Below, in pieces: positions 9,432-18,852 of a stretch of DNA of 20,342 nt. This DNA comes from a virus. Below the pieces are notes generated by a model. The model searched no databases. It worked only from the letters and a program-made list of their open reading frames with translations, and was not told the DNA's origin. The translations under genes were made by a program, and so were the position numbers. The stretch's first letter is position 1. The number at the start of each line of letters is the position of its first letter. The stretch covers positions 1-20,342 of IMG/VR virus record IMGVR_UViG_3300047319_001114. The stretch is one strand, 5' to 3'.

Positions 9432-9829
9432 GTCGCACACGCCTGCTCTAGCTTTGCCAGCATCAACGCGAATGCCTTATCAGCCCTACCGCGCCTCTCG
9501 ATGAGCCTTGTCGCGTGGATTGCCGTCGAATGGTCACGCCCGAATGATTCGCCAATCAACGGGAACGACGCCCCCGTCAATCGGCGGCAGAGGTACATCC
9601 CGACTTGCCGCGCGAAAGCGATAGGCTGCTCGCGCCCATGACCGAGTAGTTTGTTCATCGGCACGCGCAATTGGAGACTCACCGACCGTTGAATCTCGAC
9701 GATTCGCTGGAGATAGGCAAAGCGTTCTTCGCGCTTGCGCTCCGCATAACTGGCGTCCTTGTCGGTTTCATGCCCGCACGTTGGGCACCGCTGAAGTAAT
9801 GGAATCCGCAATGCTGCTGCCATTGTCAC
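9428..9829 (-). CDS. Stand-alone DnaA domain IV (origin-binding) protein
   Basis: A 133-aa protein whose second half is the DNA-binding domain IV of DnaA: PIAFARQVGMYLCRRLTG (residues 69-86) followed by FPLIGESFGRDHSTAIHATR. The RDHST motif (98-102) is the signature that reads DnaA boxes. The ATPase domain is entirely absent. The N-terminus instead has CPTCGH (C15, C18), half of a zinc knuckle, and a charged helix. It starts at GTG 9829, overlapping the HNH stop as GTGA; ATG 9823 is an alternative. In a replication block it may mark the phage origin or compete with host DnaA; both are inferences. Confidence 0.85.
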   Translation of the reverse strand: MTMAAALRIPLLQRCPTCGHETDKDASYAERKREERFAYLQRIVEIQRSVSLQLRVPMNKLLGHGREQPIAFARQVGMYLCRRLTGASFPLIGESFGRDHSTAIHATRLIERRGRADKAFALMLAKLEQACAT

Positions 9830-10527
9830 CCCCGCTCACCGAATTTGGTTAATGCCGCCTCGATTGTCCGTAGAGCGTCGCCGCTCTGCACCATCTTTAG
9901 TTGCGCTTCAGCCGCTAGACATCGTTCTCGCCAGTAAATCGCCATTTTCCGCGCACTATCATGATCGAGATTATTTTGCCCCACAGTGCCGAGAATCAGG
10001 TTCTCGGGTCGGTTGTCGGTTTTGATTCCATTCAGGTGACGCACGATCTTGCCCTTAATTTCGGCGCCGTATTTCTTCGCGGCAACTAACCGATGCTCTG
10101 CAACCCCAATTTTCCTAGTCCCCAGCCATAAATCGCACTGATTAACGATTTCGATGTCTTTTTCAGACATCCCACGCCGCGTCAGAATCACGTATCCGCG
10201 GCTGTTTATGCACCTGCCCGTGATTTTGTACGGTTTCCATTTGACGCCAGCCTGATCGAGCGTGCTGTGGTCAATCCAGTGCCACTGCCGAGCTTCGCGC
10301 ATTTTCGATATGGGATTTCGCGCCCACACTCGCTTGCCGCTTCTCTTGTTCCAATCGACTTCCCACGAATCCTTCCGGTAAACCGGCGTCGAAACACCCT
10401 GCAATCTGAGAAATCCCGTTTTCGTGAGCTTCCATTCTCGCGCTCGTGCCTGATGCGAAGTCGGGTTTCTCGCCCACACTTCAGTTCCGGTGTTTCTTGG
10501 CGAACTCCAATCGATTTCCCAAGCCAT
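9826..10527 (-). CDS. HNH endonuclease with duplicated N-terminal module
   Basis: A 233-aa protein. The HNH core is EHR (H145), then VRHLNG (H164, N166) and DNRPENL (N172, N176), close to the HNH_3 group of homing-type nucleases. Upstream lie two copies of one module: WEIDW (3-7) with VWARNP (17-22) and REW (30-32), and again WEVDW (55-59) with VWARNP (67-72) and RQW (80-82). Such modules probably read DNA. The C-terminus is a helix. It overlaps the end of the upstream nuclease gene by 47 bases, unlike the 4-base overlaps around it, which fits later insertion. Confidence 0.85.
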   Translation of the reverse strand: MAWEIDWSSPRNTGTEVWARNPTSHQARAREWKLTKTGFLRLQGVSTPVYRKDSWEVDWNKRSGKRVWARNPISKMREARQWHWIDHSTLDQAGVKWKPYKITGRCINSRGYVILTRRGMSEKDIEIVNQCDLWLGTRKIGVAEHRLVAAKKYGAEIKGKIVRHLNGIKTDNRPENLILGTVGQNNLDHDSARKMAIYWRERCLAAEAQLKMVQSGDALRTIEAALTKFGERG

Positions 10528-11738: not shown

Positions 11739-11917
11739 CGGATGCGCGCCCCGTATTCGTTGAATAGATACCGGAATTGCTGGACAATCTTGATTGCCGC
11801 GCGCCCTTGGTCCTCGAGTTTCGCATCGGGCACGCACTTTTCGACAAATGCCGCCGTATCTCTCAGAAATTCGGCGAAGTCGCTATGATCGCTATATTCC
11901 TGTCCCATGTACTTCAT
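11735..11917 (-). CDS. 60-aa hypothetical protein
   Basis: Begins MKYMGQEYSDHSDFAEFLRD and continues as one acidic helical protein ending EYGARIR. Bounded by ATGA overlaps at 11735-11738 and 11914-11917, which fix the start and exclude the longer frame to 12115. It lies between the DnaT-like and loader-like genes, so it may belong to the replication set, but no family is recognised. Confidence 0.65.
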   Translation of the reverse strand: MKYMGQEYSDHSDFAEFLRDTAAFVEKCVPDAKLEDQGRAAIKIVQQFRYLFNEYGARIR

Positions 11918-12225
11918 TTGCCCCTCCCGAGATGCCGCGCTAGGTTCGCCATCCCCGATGTGCCGAAGTTGTGCGCAAAGCCGATCGGGTTGCGATCGCC
12001 GATTCGTTGCCGATAAGCAAATTCTGTCGCACTCAATGCCCACGTCCGCCACGCTTGCGACCAGAGCTTGAACTGAGAGCCCTTGGAGAGATGGTGCGCC
12101 TCGAATTTCTCCCATTGCAGGGCGATGTCCGAATCGCTGGCGGTCGGGTTGTACTTGCGGAACGTGGCGATCTCAGGCTCGCCCAGCGCCCAGCCCTCGG
12201 GGAACTCGGTTAGCTGGCGCTTCAC
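11914..12225 (-). CDS. DnaT-like replication protein (C-terminal domain type)
   Basis: A 103-aa protein. The start is GTG 12225, which overlaps the stop of the zinc microprotein upstream as GTGA; the frame open to 12321 would cover most of that gene. Residues 15-60 read EIATFRKYNPTASDSDIALQ, then WEKFEAHHLSKGSQFKLWSQ and AWRTWAL. The W-x-x-F-x-x-x-x-x-x-K-G-x-x-x-x-x-W-x-x-x-W-R-x-W pattern is that of the DnaT-like single-strand-binding domain found at the C-terminus of primosome and phage initiator proteins. It likely helps load the helicase. Confidence 0.65.
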   Translation of the reverse strand: MKRQLTEFPEGWALGEPEIATFRKYNPTASDSDIALQWEKFEAHHLSKGSQFKLWSQAWRTWALSATEFAYRQRIGDRNPIGFAHNFGTSGMANLARHLGRGK

Positions 12226-12368
12226 GATCCCCACCTGATTTGCCGACCGCATTCCCAACAGATAAAGACCTCCCGACCGCGAACGATAATCGAGAGTTGG
12301 CCGATTGAAACGGTCCCACACAATTCACATTTCGTCTCGCTCTTGCGTTTCGTTGGTTCATCTGGCAT
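12222..12368 (-). CDS. 48-aa zinc-ribbon microprotein
   Basis: MPDEPTKRKSETKCELCGTV followed by a beta-rich stretch and CWEC near the end. Two C-x2-C pairs (C14/C17 and C37/C40) separated by 19 residues form a complete zinc ribbon. Its ATG overlaps the upstream stop as TAATG (12370-12366) and its stop overlaps the DnaT-like start as GTGA. Function unknown; replication-module context suggests DNA or protein binding. Confidence 0.75.
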   Translation of the reverse strand: MPDEPTKRKSETKCELCGTVSIGQLSIIVRGREVFICWECGRQIRWGS

Positions 12369-12691
12369 TATCGTTTCGTCTCCATCGTGGGACACCCCTT
12401 TGCCTCACCATCAAGGTTGTTGACACCGACGCTCTGGGCCTTAATTGACTCGGAGCGTTTGTGTGTGTAGGATCGACCCGCTACGTCGGAGTTGGATTCA
12501 ACAACCTTGGCCGAACGTAGTGGGCTGACGTGCCTAGTCAGCTTGAATCCACCCTGAGCCCTAATTGCTGAGACGGGTGGTCTGCCGAAGGAAGCTGCAC
12601 CTACGGCCCTTTGCCAGAGCGGCGGAATCAACCGTCCACCGAGAGCCCCCAAACTCTTGATATGGGGCATCTGTGCCCGTTCAAATTCCAT
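12368..12691 (-). CDS. 107-aa basic protein of uncertain reality
   Basis: Starts MEFERAQMPHIKSLGALGGR after a GGAG five bases upstream and ends in GCPTMETKR, with TAATG coupling to the next gene. The protein is basic and low in acidic residues, with no recognisable fold. It uses AGG/AGA for Arg four times in 107 codons, while neighbours mostly use CGN. The distal half coincides with a dense set of inverted repeats (12412-12580). Either a small gene on unusual DNA or mainly a structured noncoding element that stays open by chance. Confidence 0.4.
   Translation of the reverse strand: MEFERAQMPHIKSLGALGGRLIPPLWQRAVGAASFGRPPVSAIRAQGGFKLTRHVSPLRSAKVVESNSDVAGRSYTHKRSESIKAQSVGVNNLDGEAKGCPTMETKR
12412..12580. 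repeat. Cluster of nested inverted repeats
   Basis: An 11-base perfect pair (12412-12422 with 12499-12509) encloses CCGACG/CGTCGG (12426-12431, 12484-12489) and ACGCTC/GAGCGT (12429-12434, 12453-12458), the last two partly exclusive. GGATTCAA (12494-12501) also matches TTGAATCC (12543-12550), and CTACGT (12481-12486) matches ACGTAG (12515-12520). Separate hairpins follow: GCTGAC/GTCAGC (12524-12529, 12537-12542) and CCACCC/GGGTGG (12550-12555, 12575-12580). It could be a structured RNA, a replication origin or a single-strand initiation site. Confidence 0.7.
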
Positions 12692-12705
12692 CAGGACTCC
12701 GGTCT

Positions 12706-12855
12706 TCAAGATTGCTCCGCAAGGACAAGAGGGAGTTCTCGGACCTCTTCGATCAGCTGCTTGCCTTGGTGCCAGTGGCCTGGAATGCAGGAGCCACAGC
12801 CTAGACAGTGCAAACGGGCCGGTTTCACCCGCCGATAACAGCGCAAGCAGGTCAT
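12706..12855 (-). CDS. 49-aa zinc-ribbon microprotein
   Basis: MTCLRCYRRVKPARLHCLGC then a Cys- and His-containing loop and a helical C-terminus ending LAEQS. C3/C6 and C17/C20 make two C-x2-C pairs 10 residues apart, a compact zinc ribbon. ATG overlaps the methyltransferase stop as ATGA (12852-12855). Another microprotein below normal gene-calling size. Role unknown. Confidence 0.75.
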   Translation of the reverse strand: MTCLRCYRRVKPARLHCLGCGSCIPGHWHQGKQLIEEVRELPLVLAEQS

Positions 12856-13421
12856 TTCGATACCCCGCCAAATAAATCAACCTGACCGCGCGCGTTCTCG
12901 TTGTAAGGCGACTCGTCACCCCAGCCATTAAAGCCAGTGATGATTCGGCGATTGAAAAGATCAATGCGCGGCTCGCAACTTACCTTGCGCACCAGCGTGT
13001 AGAACTCCCCAGGCTTGGCGCTGTGTTCAGGCGGAATCGCCTCAAAGTGAGTCGGTAGATAACGCAGGCGCTTGAACTCGCACCGCTTGTAATAGCCGAA
13101 TAGACAATGCTGAGTCGTGCCGACGAACCATGCCCCGAGACCCGACGGTTTCACCCAAGTTATCGTCGTGAGATAGGTAAATCCCCACGCTTCCATCACA
13201 TCGAAGGCTTGGCGCAGAAATGCGTTCGTAGTCCAGAGCCAGAGATGCGAACCAACATCGGCGATCGACTCGACGGGCAGTGCCTTGATTTCCCCCAGAT
13301 TGGCTATCTGATAGGGAATCGCCATTGCTCGATTCTCGCGCTTTTTAGACGCGCCCGTCAGCGGCTGCGGCCACGGCGGGTCAGCCACGATGCAACGATA
13401 GATACCGCTAGGCAACGTCAT
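12852..13421 (-). CDS. MT-A70 family adenine methyltransferase (DPPW)
   Basis: A 189-aa protein from ATG 13421. IYRCIVADPPWPQP holds the catalytic DPPW (14-17), followed by SHLWLWTTNAFLRQAFDVME, then GFTYLTTITWVKPSGLG and, near the end, HSAKPGEFYTLVRKVS and RIDLFNRR. These are the ordered motifs of MT-A70 N6-adenine methyltransferases, common in phages. The frame opens upstream to a TTG at 13475, but the family begins close to the chosen ATG. It is the first substantial gene of the leftward replication block and probably modifies phage DNA against host restriction. Confidence 0.9.
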   Translation of the reverse strand: MTLPSGIYRCIVADPPWPQPLTGASKKRENRAMAIPYQIANLGEIKALPVESIADVGSHLWLWTTNAFLRQAFDVMEAWGFTYLTTITWVKPSGLGAWFVGTTQHCLFGYYKRCEFKRLRYLPTHFEAIPPEHSAKPGEFYTLVRKVSCEPRIDLFNRRIITGFNGWGDESPYNENARGQVDLFGGVSK

Positions 13422-13465
13422 TTCGCACCCCAATCCGAAATAGACTCCCCATCCGCCTCGTGCAT
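13418..13465 (-). CDS. Possible 15-aa leader peptide
   Basis: MHEADGESISDWGAK, preceded by GGAG four bases before its ATG and ending in an ATGA overlap with the methyltransferase start. The ribosome site is better than that of the methyltransferase itself, so translation could be coupled through it. Very short, so this is tentative. Confidence 0.3.
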   Translation of the reverse strand: MHEADGESISDWGAK

Positions 13466-13558
13466 GGCGCTCCAATGCGCCCCTTCCGCATCCCCGCTGC
13501 TAACTTCCTGTCATCTACAATGTCGAACTTTAAGAGCGATAATCCCACAACGATTCGC

Positions 13559-16826: not shown

Positions 16827-17207
16827 ATGAACCTGCCGCCTGAAGTCATGGCGAAGTGGCCGCAAGCGCTGGCTAACTACGGACATCCGTGGAAGCCAGG
16901 GCAGCGATGCGGGGGTGCGCAACCTAACTATGACGCACAGCATCCTTATGGGAGGGTTCGTATCTACGAATCTGAGATTGTTTGCGAACATGGAGAAATT
17001 GCAGATCACGACATCCCCCCGCCCGCCGTCACCGACGAACTCCTCTGGCAGATGCTCGTCAAGGGGCTGGAGCATTCGCCGTGGTTCTTGGTCGATAAAA
17101 TTGGGCCGTTTCTCGGAGTCGCGCCGAAGAACGCTAACAACTTTGAATGTACTCGCTCGCTCGCTGCGGCCGTCATCCTTGCGTGGGCCAGCATGGAGGC
17201 GAAGTGA
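16827..17207 (+). CDS. 126-aa hypothetical protein
   Basis: MNLPPEVMAKWPQALANYGH followed by a middle with YGRVRIYESEIVCEHGE and a helical C-terminus. An AAAGGAG site stands before the ATG. Its stop overlaps the next start as TGATG. No family is recognised. Confidence 0.7.
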   Translation: MNLPPEVMAKWPQALANYGHPWKPGQRCGGAQPNYDAQHPYGRVRIYESEIVCEHGEIADHDIPPPAVTDELLWQMLVKGLEHSPWFLVDKIGPFLGVAPKNANNFECTRSLAAAVILAWASMEAK

Positions 17208-17443
17208 TGCCGACAGCGAAGGTTGTGCCGCGCAATGGCTGGTTTTTTATCCGCTCGATCATGCGCGGCTGGTATAGGGTAACGTTTATCGCCGTGAAAT
17301 GGGAGCCTCGCGACGTTTGGATTGGCGTTTACTGGACGCCGTATCCCGACGGCTGGCTCCCGTTCCTTACGAATTTCCGTGTGTACGTCTGCATCGTCCC
17401 GATGGTGCCAATTATTTTTGATCTCATCGAGCGCGAACCGTAG
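17207..17443 (+). CDS. 78-aa aromatic-rich protein with hydrophobic end
   Basis: MPTAKVVPRNGWFFIRSIMR, then many Trp and Tyr residues and a C-terminal hydrophobic stretch (FRVYVCIVPMVPIIFDLI). It may be membrane-associated. Coupled to the upstream gene by TGATG. No family is recognised. Confidence 0.65.
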   Translation: MPTAKVVPRNGWFFIRSIMRGWYRVTFIAVKWEPRDVWIGVYWTPYPDGWLPFLTNFRVYVCIVPMVPIIFDLIEREP

Positions 17444-17681: not shown

Positions 17682-18422
17682 CTACCCCAGCGCCGCCAAG
17701 TCCTGCTCTAGCTGCGAGAAGCTGAAGCCGTTCGCATCGTTCCAGTCCGGCCCGGCGGCGTCGTCGTAGAGCCGCGCCTGCGCCTCGTCCATCGTATTCA
17801 GCCAGAACTCCCACGTGCCTTTCTGGAAGCCGCCCCAGGTGAAGCACCACGCGCCATCAGCGTCGTAGGCCACGAGCGGTACGTCGTGCCCGCCCACCGG
17901 CGACCCGCTGTAGTTCGACCATATCCGACCGGCCATGAAGTCGTCCTGAGCCGTCGGCGGAACGCTGAAGCCCACCGAGCAATGCTTGAACAGGAAGATG
18001 GTCTGTTTGATTTGATCGACTTTCGTCTTATCGACATCGAGGTAGGCGTGAATCTTGTGCGGCACACCCTTCACGATTAGCCCGTTCTTCTGCACGTAAT
18101 CGGCTATCTCGGTGAGGCTCGCGCCCTGGTCGGTGCTGGGGTCGTTCGGGTCGTAGCCGGTCGCCCCTGAGTAGAGCGCCAGCACTTCCGCTGTGGTCGG
18201 CACCACGATACCCGCGCCCATCGCCGTCAGGAGCATCACGCTATGGCCCACGTCCGCGCAGGTGCAATCGCCCACCTGGTCGTTCCCCATCATGCCGAGG
18301 TCTTCGGAGATGGCGAGCGACCAATCGACGGCGACAGGCGGAGGCGGTAGCGCCGGCCCCATGTAGTTGCGAAACTTCAGCGGCGCGTTGTCCGATTTCC
18401 GCACATAACCGAACTTAAACAT
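17682..18422 (-). CDS. Papain-like cysteine peptidase-fold protein
   Basis: A 246-aa protein. GNDQVGDCTCADVGHSVML provides Q49 and C55 in the Q-x5-C spacing of papain; GGHDVPLVAYD supplies H179, and FTWG (194-197) replaces the NSWG element. The middle, with YSGATGYDPNDPSTDQG, recurs in a phage-associated family related to C1/C39 peptidases. No signal peptide is visible. A clear AAAGGAG site lies inside the end of the HNH gene upstream. Target unknown; it could process a virion protein or attack the host. Confidence 0.75.
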   Translation of the reverse strand: MFKFGYVRKSDNAPLKFRNYMGPALPPPPVAVDWSLAISEDLGMMGNDQVGDCTCADVGHSVMLLTAMGAGIVVPTTAEVLALYSGATGYDPNDPSTDQGASLTEIADYVQKNGLIVKGVPHKIHAYLDVDKTKVDQIKQTIFLFKHCSVGFSVPPTAQDDFMAGRIWSNYSGSPVGGHDVPLVAYDADGAWCFTWGGFQKGTWEFWLNTMDEAQARLYDDAAGPDWNDANGFSFSQLEQDLAALG

Positions 18423-18852
18423 GCAATTCTCCTTTGGGCCGACGACGACCGGGATAGCCGCGTCTCATATTTTCGCGATGGGTAACGGGTTCTAGATGGA
18501 AAGGATTAACGCAGAGTCGATTACGGCAGAGATGGTCGAGTTCCAATCCTTCAGGCACTTCGCCAATGACGTGCTCGAATAGCACTCGATATGATTTGCG
18601 TGGAGTCGTGTCGGTATGGATTCGCCCGTAACCATTTTCGTCAATCGAGCCAGTCCACGTCCAGCACTCACCAGTAATTATCACTTTCTCTAAGAGGCGC
18701 TCAATTACATGGCGCGGCTTAATCGTAGGCCCACGACTTCGGCGCGAACATCCTCGCGAGCAGAATTGTCTCCGTTTTCGATTTCTCCACTTCGACATGG
18801 GGATGCCGCAGAGTTGGCATGATGCAGAGGCCTTGAATCCTTTCACGGGCAT
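18415..18852 (-). CDS. HNH homing-type endonuclease with N-terminal zinc finger
   Basis: A 145-aa protein. C12/C15 and C31/C35 form an N-terminal treble-clef-like zinc site; CWTWTGSIDENGYGRI begins the nuclease domain and LELDHLCRNRLCVNPFHLEP holds the active site (D106, H107, N116, H119). This is the HNH_3 layout of phage free-standing homing endonucleases. It sits between two late genes with short overlaps (8 and 10 bases), as an intruder that does not break its neighbours. Confidence 0.88.
   Translation of the reverse strand: MPVKGFKASASCQLCGIPMSKWRNRKRRQFCSRGCSRRSRGPTIKPRHVIERLLEKVIITGECWTWTGSIDENGYGRIHTDTTPRKSYRVLFEHVIGEVPEGLELDHLCRNRLCVNPFHLEPVTHRENMRRGYPGRRRPKGELHV

Follow-up and report, generated by a model that had tools for sequence, protein, structure and literature searches.

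A conserved structured RNA is almost certainly encoded beside the replication genes of the phages examined here, very probably on the plus strand and antisense to the operon that surrounds it. The window, that is, the whole stretch of DNA that was analyzed, is the 20,342-base virus record IMGVR_UViG_3300047319_001114, in which a sequence-only reading had noted dense nested inverted repeats at positions 12412-12580. Judged by comparison with Rfam 15, the element appears to be an RNA class absent from that database and a sequence family of its own. The explanation that we favor, with a probability of about 0.42, is that it is a stand-alone plus-strand RNA of about 300 nucleotides that exerts cis-antisense control on the replication block.

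The comparison set consists of the window and three IMG/VR contigs, L008 (3300046517_000933), L009 (3300047321_000419) and L010 (3300047471_000244), which were reached by searching with the genes neighboring the element. The element in these relatives is 68%, 67% and 61% identical to that of the window, respectively, and because L008 and L009 are 87% identical to each other, the four sequences represent effectively three lineages. Searching with a model of the 5' half gives a single copy per record in all four phages. In each, the element falls between a variable upstream gene, past its stop codon, and the start of the DnaT-like gene block. Searches of viral contigs by alignment with the DnaT-like protein and the protein of the next gene returned the same three phages and no others. 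Pattern scans for further members (CCATATCAAGAGTTTGG, AAYGATAATGCCAGATGAA, AGTCAATTAMGRCYC...GCG) gave only chance matches outside the known contigs, and DNA searches of annotated phages and plasmids gave nothing usable. A genome-contig match, L029, was considered as a further member and set aside as chance, and model R1 found no copy in three distant phages that carry DnaT-like genes.

The evidence for a conserved RNA structure is comparative. Consensus folding of the four-way alignment with RNAalifold gave a z score of -10.9 for the plus strand and -5.5 for the minus strand, relative to column shuffles that preserve gap patterns and conservation classes, and a second alignment gave -9.7 and -5.8. 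The same test applied to two flanking genes returned +0.4, +1.0, -1.4 and +0.8. The pseudoknotted structure of the 5' half has 95.3% of its cells paired and nine pairs changed on both sides, against 3.9 in shuffles (none of 500 as high); versions of the structure slid along the alignment have 33-47% of cells paired and zero or one pair changed on both sides. The sequence alignment misplaces gaps in the 3'-half hairpins, and these tool counts refer to the 5' half. Over the whole element, compensatory changes were found in 15 of 70 hand-set pairs; that table was made by eye, and its 3'-half helices were placed manually after inspection, so more weight belongs to the tool counts. A structured RNA was among the candidates of the sequence-only reading, and the conserved pairings, with compensatory changes beyond the alignment-shuffle controls, bear it out; what that reading missed is the strand, plus and antisense to the genes, and the promoter-like block at the 5' edge.

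The strand assignment comes from wobble pairs. A first helix table, read on the minus strand, contained 16 A.C oppositions and two G.U pairs, and the refined table, read on the plus strand, contains 19 G.U and two A.C (one-sided binomial 1e-4, with cells treated as independent though they are not fully so). Since an A.C opposition on the minus strand is a G.U pair on the plus strand, this bias assigns the RNA to the plus strand, opposite in sense to the operon around it. Counting G.U against A.C blindly on separately optimized plus and minus consensus folds does not discriminate between the strands, because each fold is optimized for its own wobble pairs.

Table 1. Positions of the RNA, its helices and the adjoining genes in the window
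Feature	Position	Strand	Remarks
DnaT-like primosomal protein gene	11914..12231	-	follows element in all four phages
Next leftward gene, Cys-rich	12222..12368	-	ATG 12368-12366; open frame from GTG 12395
Promoter-like block	12343..12371	+	TTGCGT 12343-12348, 17-base spacer ending TGG, CATTAT 12366-12371
Structured non-coding RNA	12378..12680	+	both ends predicted
Hairpin A	12378-12382 with 12389-12393	+	opposite Shine-Dalgarno site of next leftward gene
Stem B	12413-12423 with 12498-12508	+	first stem of pseudoknot; the 11-base pair of the sequence-only reading
Hairpin D	outer 12423-12426/12461-12464; inner 12429-12440/12447-12458	+	loop (U/G)UAAUU
Stem C	12477-12489 with 12511-12514 and 12516-12524	+	second stem of pseudoknot; crosses stem B
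Hairpin E	12524-12529 with 12537-12542	+	
Hairpin F	12549-12554 with 12575-12580; inner 12557-12559 with 12567-12569	+	
Hairpin G	12581..12618; closing 12581-12584 with 12615-12618	+	long, variable
Hairpin H	12621-12625 with 12632-12636	+	two compensatory pairs
3' hairpin I	12642-12645 with 12654-12657	+	
3' hairpin K	12665-12668 with 12675-12678	+	
Upstream leftward gene, 49 aa, Cys-rich	12706..12855	-	replaced by different genes in relatives

The individual helices are listed in Table 1. Hairpin A is paired in all four phages on the plus strand, with U-G, C-G and U-A at one position. Stems B and C cross to form a pseudoknot and both covary: two pairs of stem B are changed on both sides, one of them occurring as three types (G-C, A-U and U-A), and four pairs of stem C are changed on both sides, with this stem less secure in L010. 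In all four sequences hairpin D is nearly perfect: 98.4% of its cells are paired, and three of its pairs have changed on both sides. Hairpin F occurs as CCACCC/GGGTGG or CCATCC/GGATGG, and its inner part as AGC/GCT or CCC/GGG. Hairpin G is predicted in single folds of the window, L008 and L010 and was left out of the pair counts. An alternative pairing at the 3' end is possible between CCCC (12647-12650) and GGGG (12664-12667).

Every inverted repeat that had been named in the region is present. The segments 12412-12423 and 12498-12509 pair over 12 perfect bases, which include the 11-base repeat first described, 12493-12501 and 12543-12551 pair over nine perfect bases, and 12477-12486 and 12515-12524 over nine of ten; the two compact hairpins correspond to E and to the outer part of F. 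The repeat region is thus real, with its extent understated, the element covering about 12378-12680 in addition to the promoter-like block. The fold of the single sequence is only moderately unusual, with z scores of -2.99 (plus) and -1.92 (minus) for 12400-12710, and a fold scan of both strands places the 170-base segment at this site about 11th among those of the 20 kb; it is the comparative evidence, not the single-sequence fold, that raises the element above chance. In the same scan the most significant fold was at 80-290, with two long hairpins (z -4.7 for 101-270 on the plus strand; z -2.7 when refolded with flanks). The second-ranked fold, at 16830-17040 (z -3.9; refolded -2.2), overlaps the open frames 16827-17207 and 16915-17277 and is therefore probably coding.

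A 107-codon frame (12368-12691) crosses the element, and the possibility that this is ordinary coding DNA for a 107-amino acid protein was weighed. The frame is open in the window with a plausible Shine-Dalgarno site, and a weak tblastn match was obtained in L008, which we attribute to DNA similarity. Against this, substitutions by codon position (40/33/33, 31/28/31 and 44/39/45) show no bias, indels in the relatives relative to the window are mostly not multiples of three, and the frame is broken by stops in L010 and by a frame change in L009; on the plus strand, no frame is free of stops in any of the four sequences. Protein searches found no homologues of the 107-amino acid frame, in agreement with the sequence-only reading, which had recognized no protein there. 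That reading had also proposed that homologues conserving the protein while the pairings drift would indicate ordinary coding DNA, and the opposite is seen: the pairings are kept and the frame drifts. There is no coding constraint on the element, and we regard the coding explanation as already refuted.

The most conserved stretch of the region, at about 12342-12372, coincides with the promoter-like block, with 19 of 20 columns invariant in the four phages. The two hexamers of the block match the consensus at three of six positions, which is weak for the -35 box, and at four of six, and a sigma-70 consensus scan did not list it. The start expected from this block, at about 12378, is the first base of hairpin A. 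The block overlaps, on the opposite strand, the codons for MPDE(P/L)TKRK with which the next leftward gene starts. The leftward proteins diverge directly after these codons; conservation of the block followed by divergence of the protein is compatible with selection at the DNA level, although a run of eight codons that lacks synonymous changes is by itself weak evidence. We consider it probable that the RNA has its own promoter here. Facing the predicted 5' end of the RNA is the Shine-Dalgarno site (12383-12380) of the adjoining leftward gene, whose start codon lies inside the promoter-like block. At the other end, a scan of the plus strand found nothing resembling an intrinsic terminator, and the 3' end is placed at about 12680 by the last conserved hairpin.

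The block that follows the element encodes the DnaT-like protein, which is 65-71% identical in the relatives and has weak tblastn matches to "primosomal protein I" of phages. Another small protein conserved in this block is, in our view, reminiscent of phage helicase loaders; family searches gave no match in support of that resemblance. The gene just upstream of the element varies (window 12706-13475, L008:2056-2688, L009:1926-2657, L010:2233-2502), and this site carries cargo: an MT-A70 methyltransferase with a Cys-rich protein, other methyltransferases, or another Cys-rich protein. On the downstream side, window 12222-12368 and L010:2822-3010 encode different small Cys-rich proteins between a common MPDEPTKRK start and the DnaT-like gene, and in L008 and L009 that start reads directly into the DnaT-like protein. 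A 226-amino acid open frame in L009 (2623-3303) extends across all of the RNA element and on into the DnaT-like gene, and would appear as one fused protein in annotation. Elsewhere in the window, the minus strand carries a pair of HNH endonuclease genes (9826-10527 and 18415-18852) whose products are possibly free-standing homing endonucleases. The head-tail connector family of the window has no match in L008 or L009, which are records of 54-60 kb and possibly fragments, so the replication block may be common to phages with different structural genes.

The sequence-only reading had recognized no known RNA family, and searches of three members against Rfam 15 (4227 families) concur: there was no match at gathering score, and the few sub-threshold matches were far under those scores. 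ARAGORN found no tRNA or tmRNA. There was no Rfam match to a group I or II self-splicing intron, and the element lies between complete genes. With GOLLD and ROOL, ornate RNAs of phages or bacteria, and with phage RNA motifs found by comparative genomics, such as the c4 antisense RNA (PMC2864571), it has in common that all are structured phage-encoded RNAs, large or compact, found by covariation, but in the Rfam searches it matches none of them.

The closest known systems are antisense RNAs of replication regions. The OOP RNA of phage lambda is 77 nt long, has a terminator at its end and targets cII. The element, unlike it, is about 300 nt long and consists of many helices and a pseudoknot; it occupies the intercistronic gap, facing a Shine-Dalgarno site, and lacks a clear terminator. 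In lambda, the antisense oop RNA is transcribed from pO, a promoter next to the origin, and affects cII by way of RNase III; the activity of pO itself tunes pR transcription and replication (PMC3985674). The arrangement proposed here is similar in that a transcript from a putative promoter beside a replication gene would run antisense to the replication operon, towards the preceding gene, as it does in lambda (PMC3985674). Phage searches found no sequence relation to lambda OOP. We therefore describe the element as OOP/pO-like in its apparent placement and do not claim membership, since terminator, sequence and model matches are absent. The CopA, RNAI and Inc-type RNAs of plasmids are folded and antisense to a replication-gene leader; they measure roughly 70-110 nt and form one to three hairpins. 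The element resembles them as a folded antisense RNA opposite a replication-gene leader and differs in having at least seven helices and a pseudoknot, with no sequence kinship. With the strand taken from the wobble bias, it lies opposite the putative target mRNA and overlaps its control region, as a cis-antisense RNA does.

We propose that the RNA is transcribed from the block at 12343-12371, starting near 12378, so that its 5' end would lie opposite the Shine-Dalgarno site (12380-12383) of the first leftward gene of the replication block; that position is what suggests a cis-antisense RNA to the intercistronic leader. With both strands transcribed, the RNA could pair with the leader and two polymerases would converge. 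Pairing with the leader, convergent transcription or both may then control expression of the replication genes, as in lambda OOP/pO and the CopA-type RNAs, and the conserved fold might set stability or pairing kinetics, or bind a protein. We tentatively take antisense control of the replication block to be the main role.

A simple antisense RNA needs no such elaborate fold, and for this reason an additional or different role can be argued. Next in rank, possible but on balance doubtful, is a trans-acting structured RNA or ribonucleoprotein, serving in host take-over, as a decoy or as a catalytic RNA, whose antisense location at the replication block would be incidental. The fold exceeds what antisense pairing requires, with its covarying pseudoknot and conserved (U/G)UAAUU loop, but the antisense position ahead of the DnaT-like gene is constant in all the phages, and no 12-base complementarity to other examined phage regions is common to them. 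A replication primer or origin transcript starting beside the primosome genes, in the manner of ColE1 RNA II or transcription at ori-lambda, seems improbable. The ColE1 pre-primer is a large folded RNA with its own promoter, an arrangement that the element with its putative promoter resembles, and the DnaT-like gene adjoins it; yet there is no GC-skew turn in the element and there are no iterons, and the idea of lambda oop as a primer has been abandoned (PMC3985674). The suggestion of the sequence-only reading that the repeats mark a replication origin or single-strand initiation site gains no positive support, given the same GC-skew result and the lack of strong direct repeats or iterons. More improbable still is a single-stranded DNA structure of the plus strand, for example a site of primosome assembly or initiation read by the DnaT-like protein whose gene is adjacent. 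Such a structure would be compatible with the wobble bias, because G.T pairs are tolerated in folded single-stranded DNA, but we know of no primosome or single-strand initiation site as large as about 300 nt with a pseudoknot and at least seven helices, and the promoter-like block stands exactly at the 5' edge of the element. A riboswitch-like or autoregulatory cis-acting leader on the leftward mRNA is about as improbable, or slightly more so. It would account for the position directly upstream of the operon's Shine-Dalgarno site, and the minus reading does beat shuffles, as any helix set would; the wobble bias, however, is reversed in that reading and the plus strand scores much better. A minus-strand leader RNA was our initial reading and was dropped on the A.C excess in the helix table.

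A more speculative reading is one that we rate a little below the trans-acting alternative. The element could belong to a new class of elaborate, pseudoknotted phage RNAs, antisense to the replication block, whose protein-binding or catalytic fold times or licenses DNA replication, and such an RNA would move, together with the replication module, among phages whose structural genes differ. Being small and self-contained, the element lends itself to testing in a plasmid reporter. This RNA class came to light in a single raw window, and covariation in the related phages confirmed it. It points to a counterpart of the lambda pO/OOP antisense-promoter arrangement in which the RNA is large and folded, and RNA control of phage replication may then exceed its known complexity.
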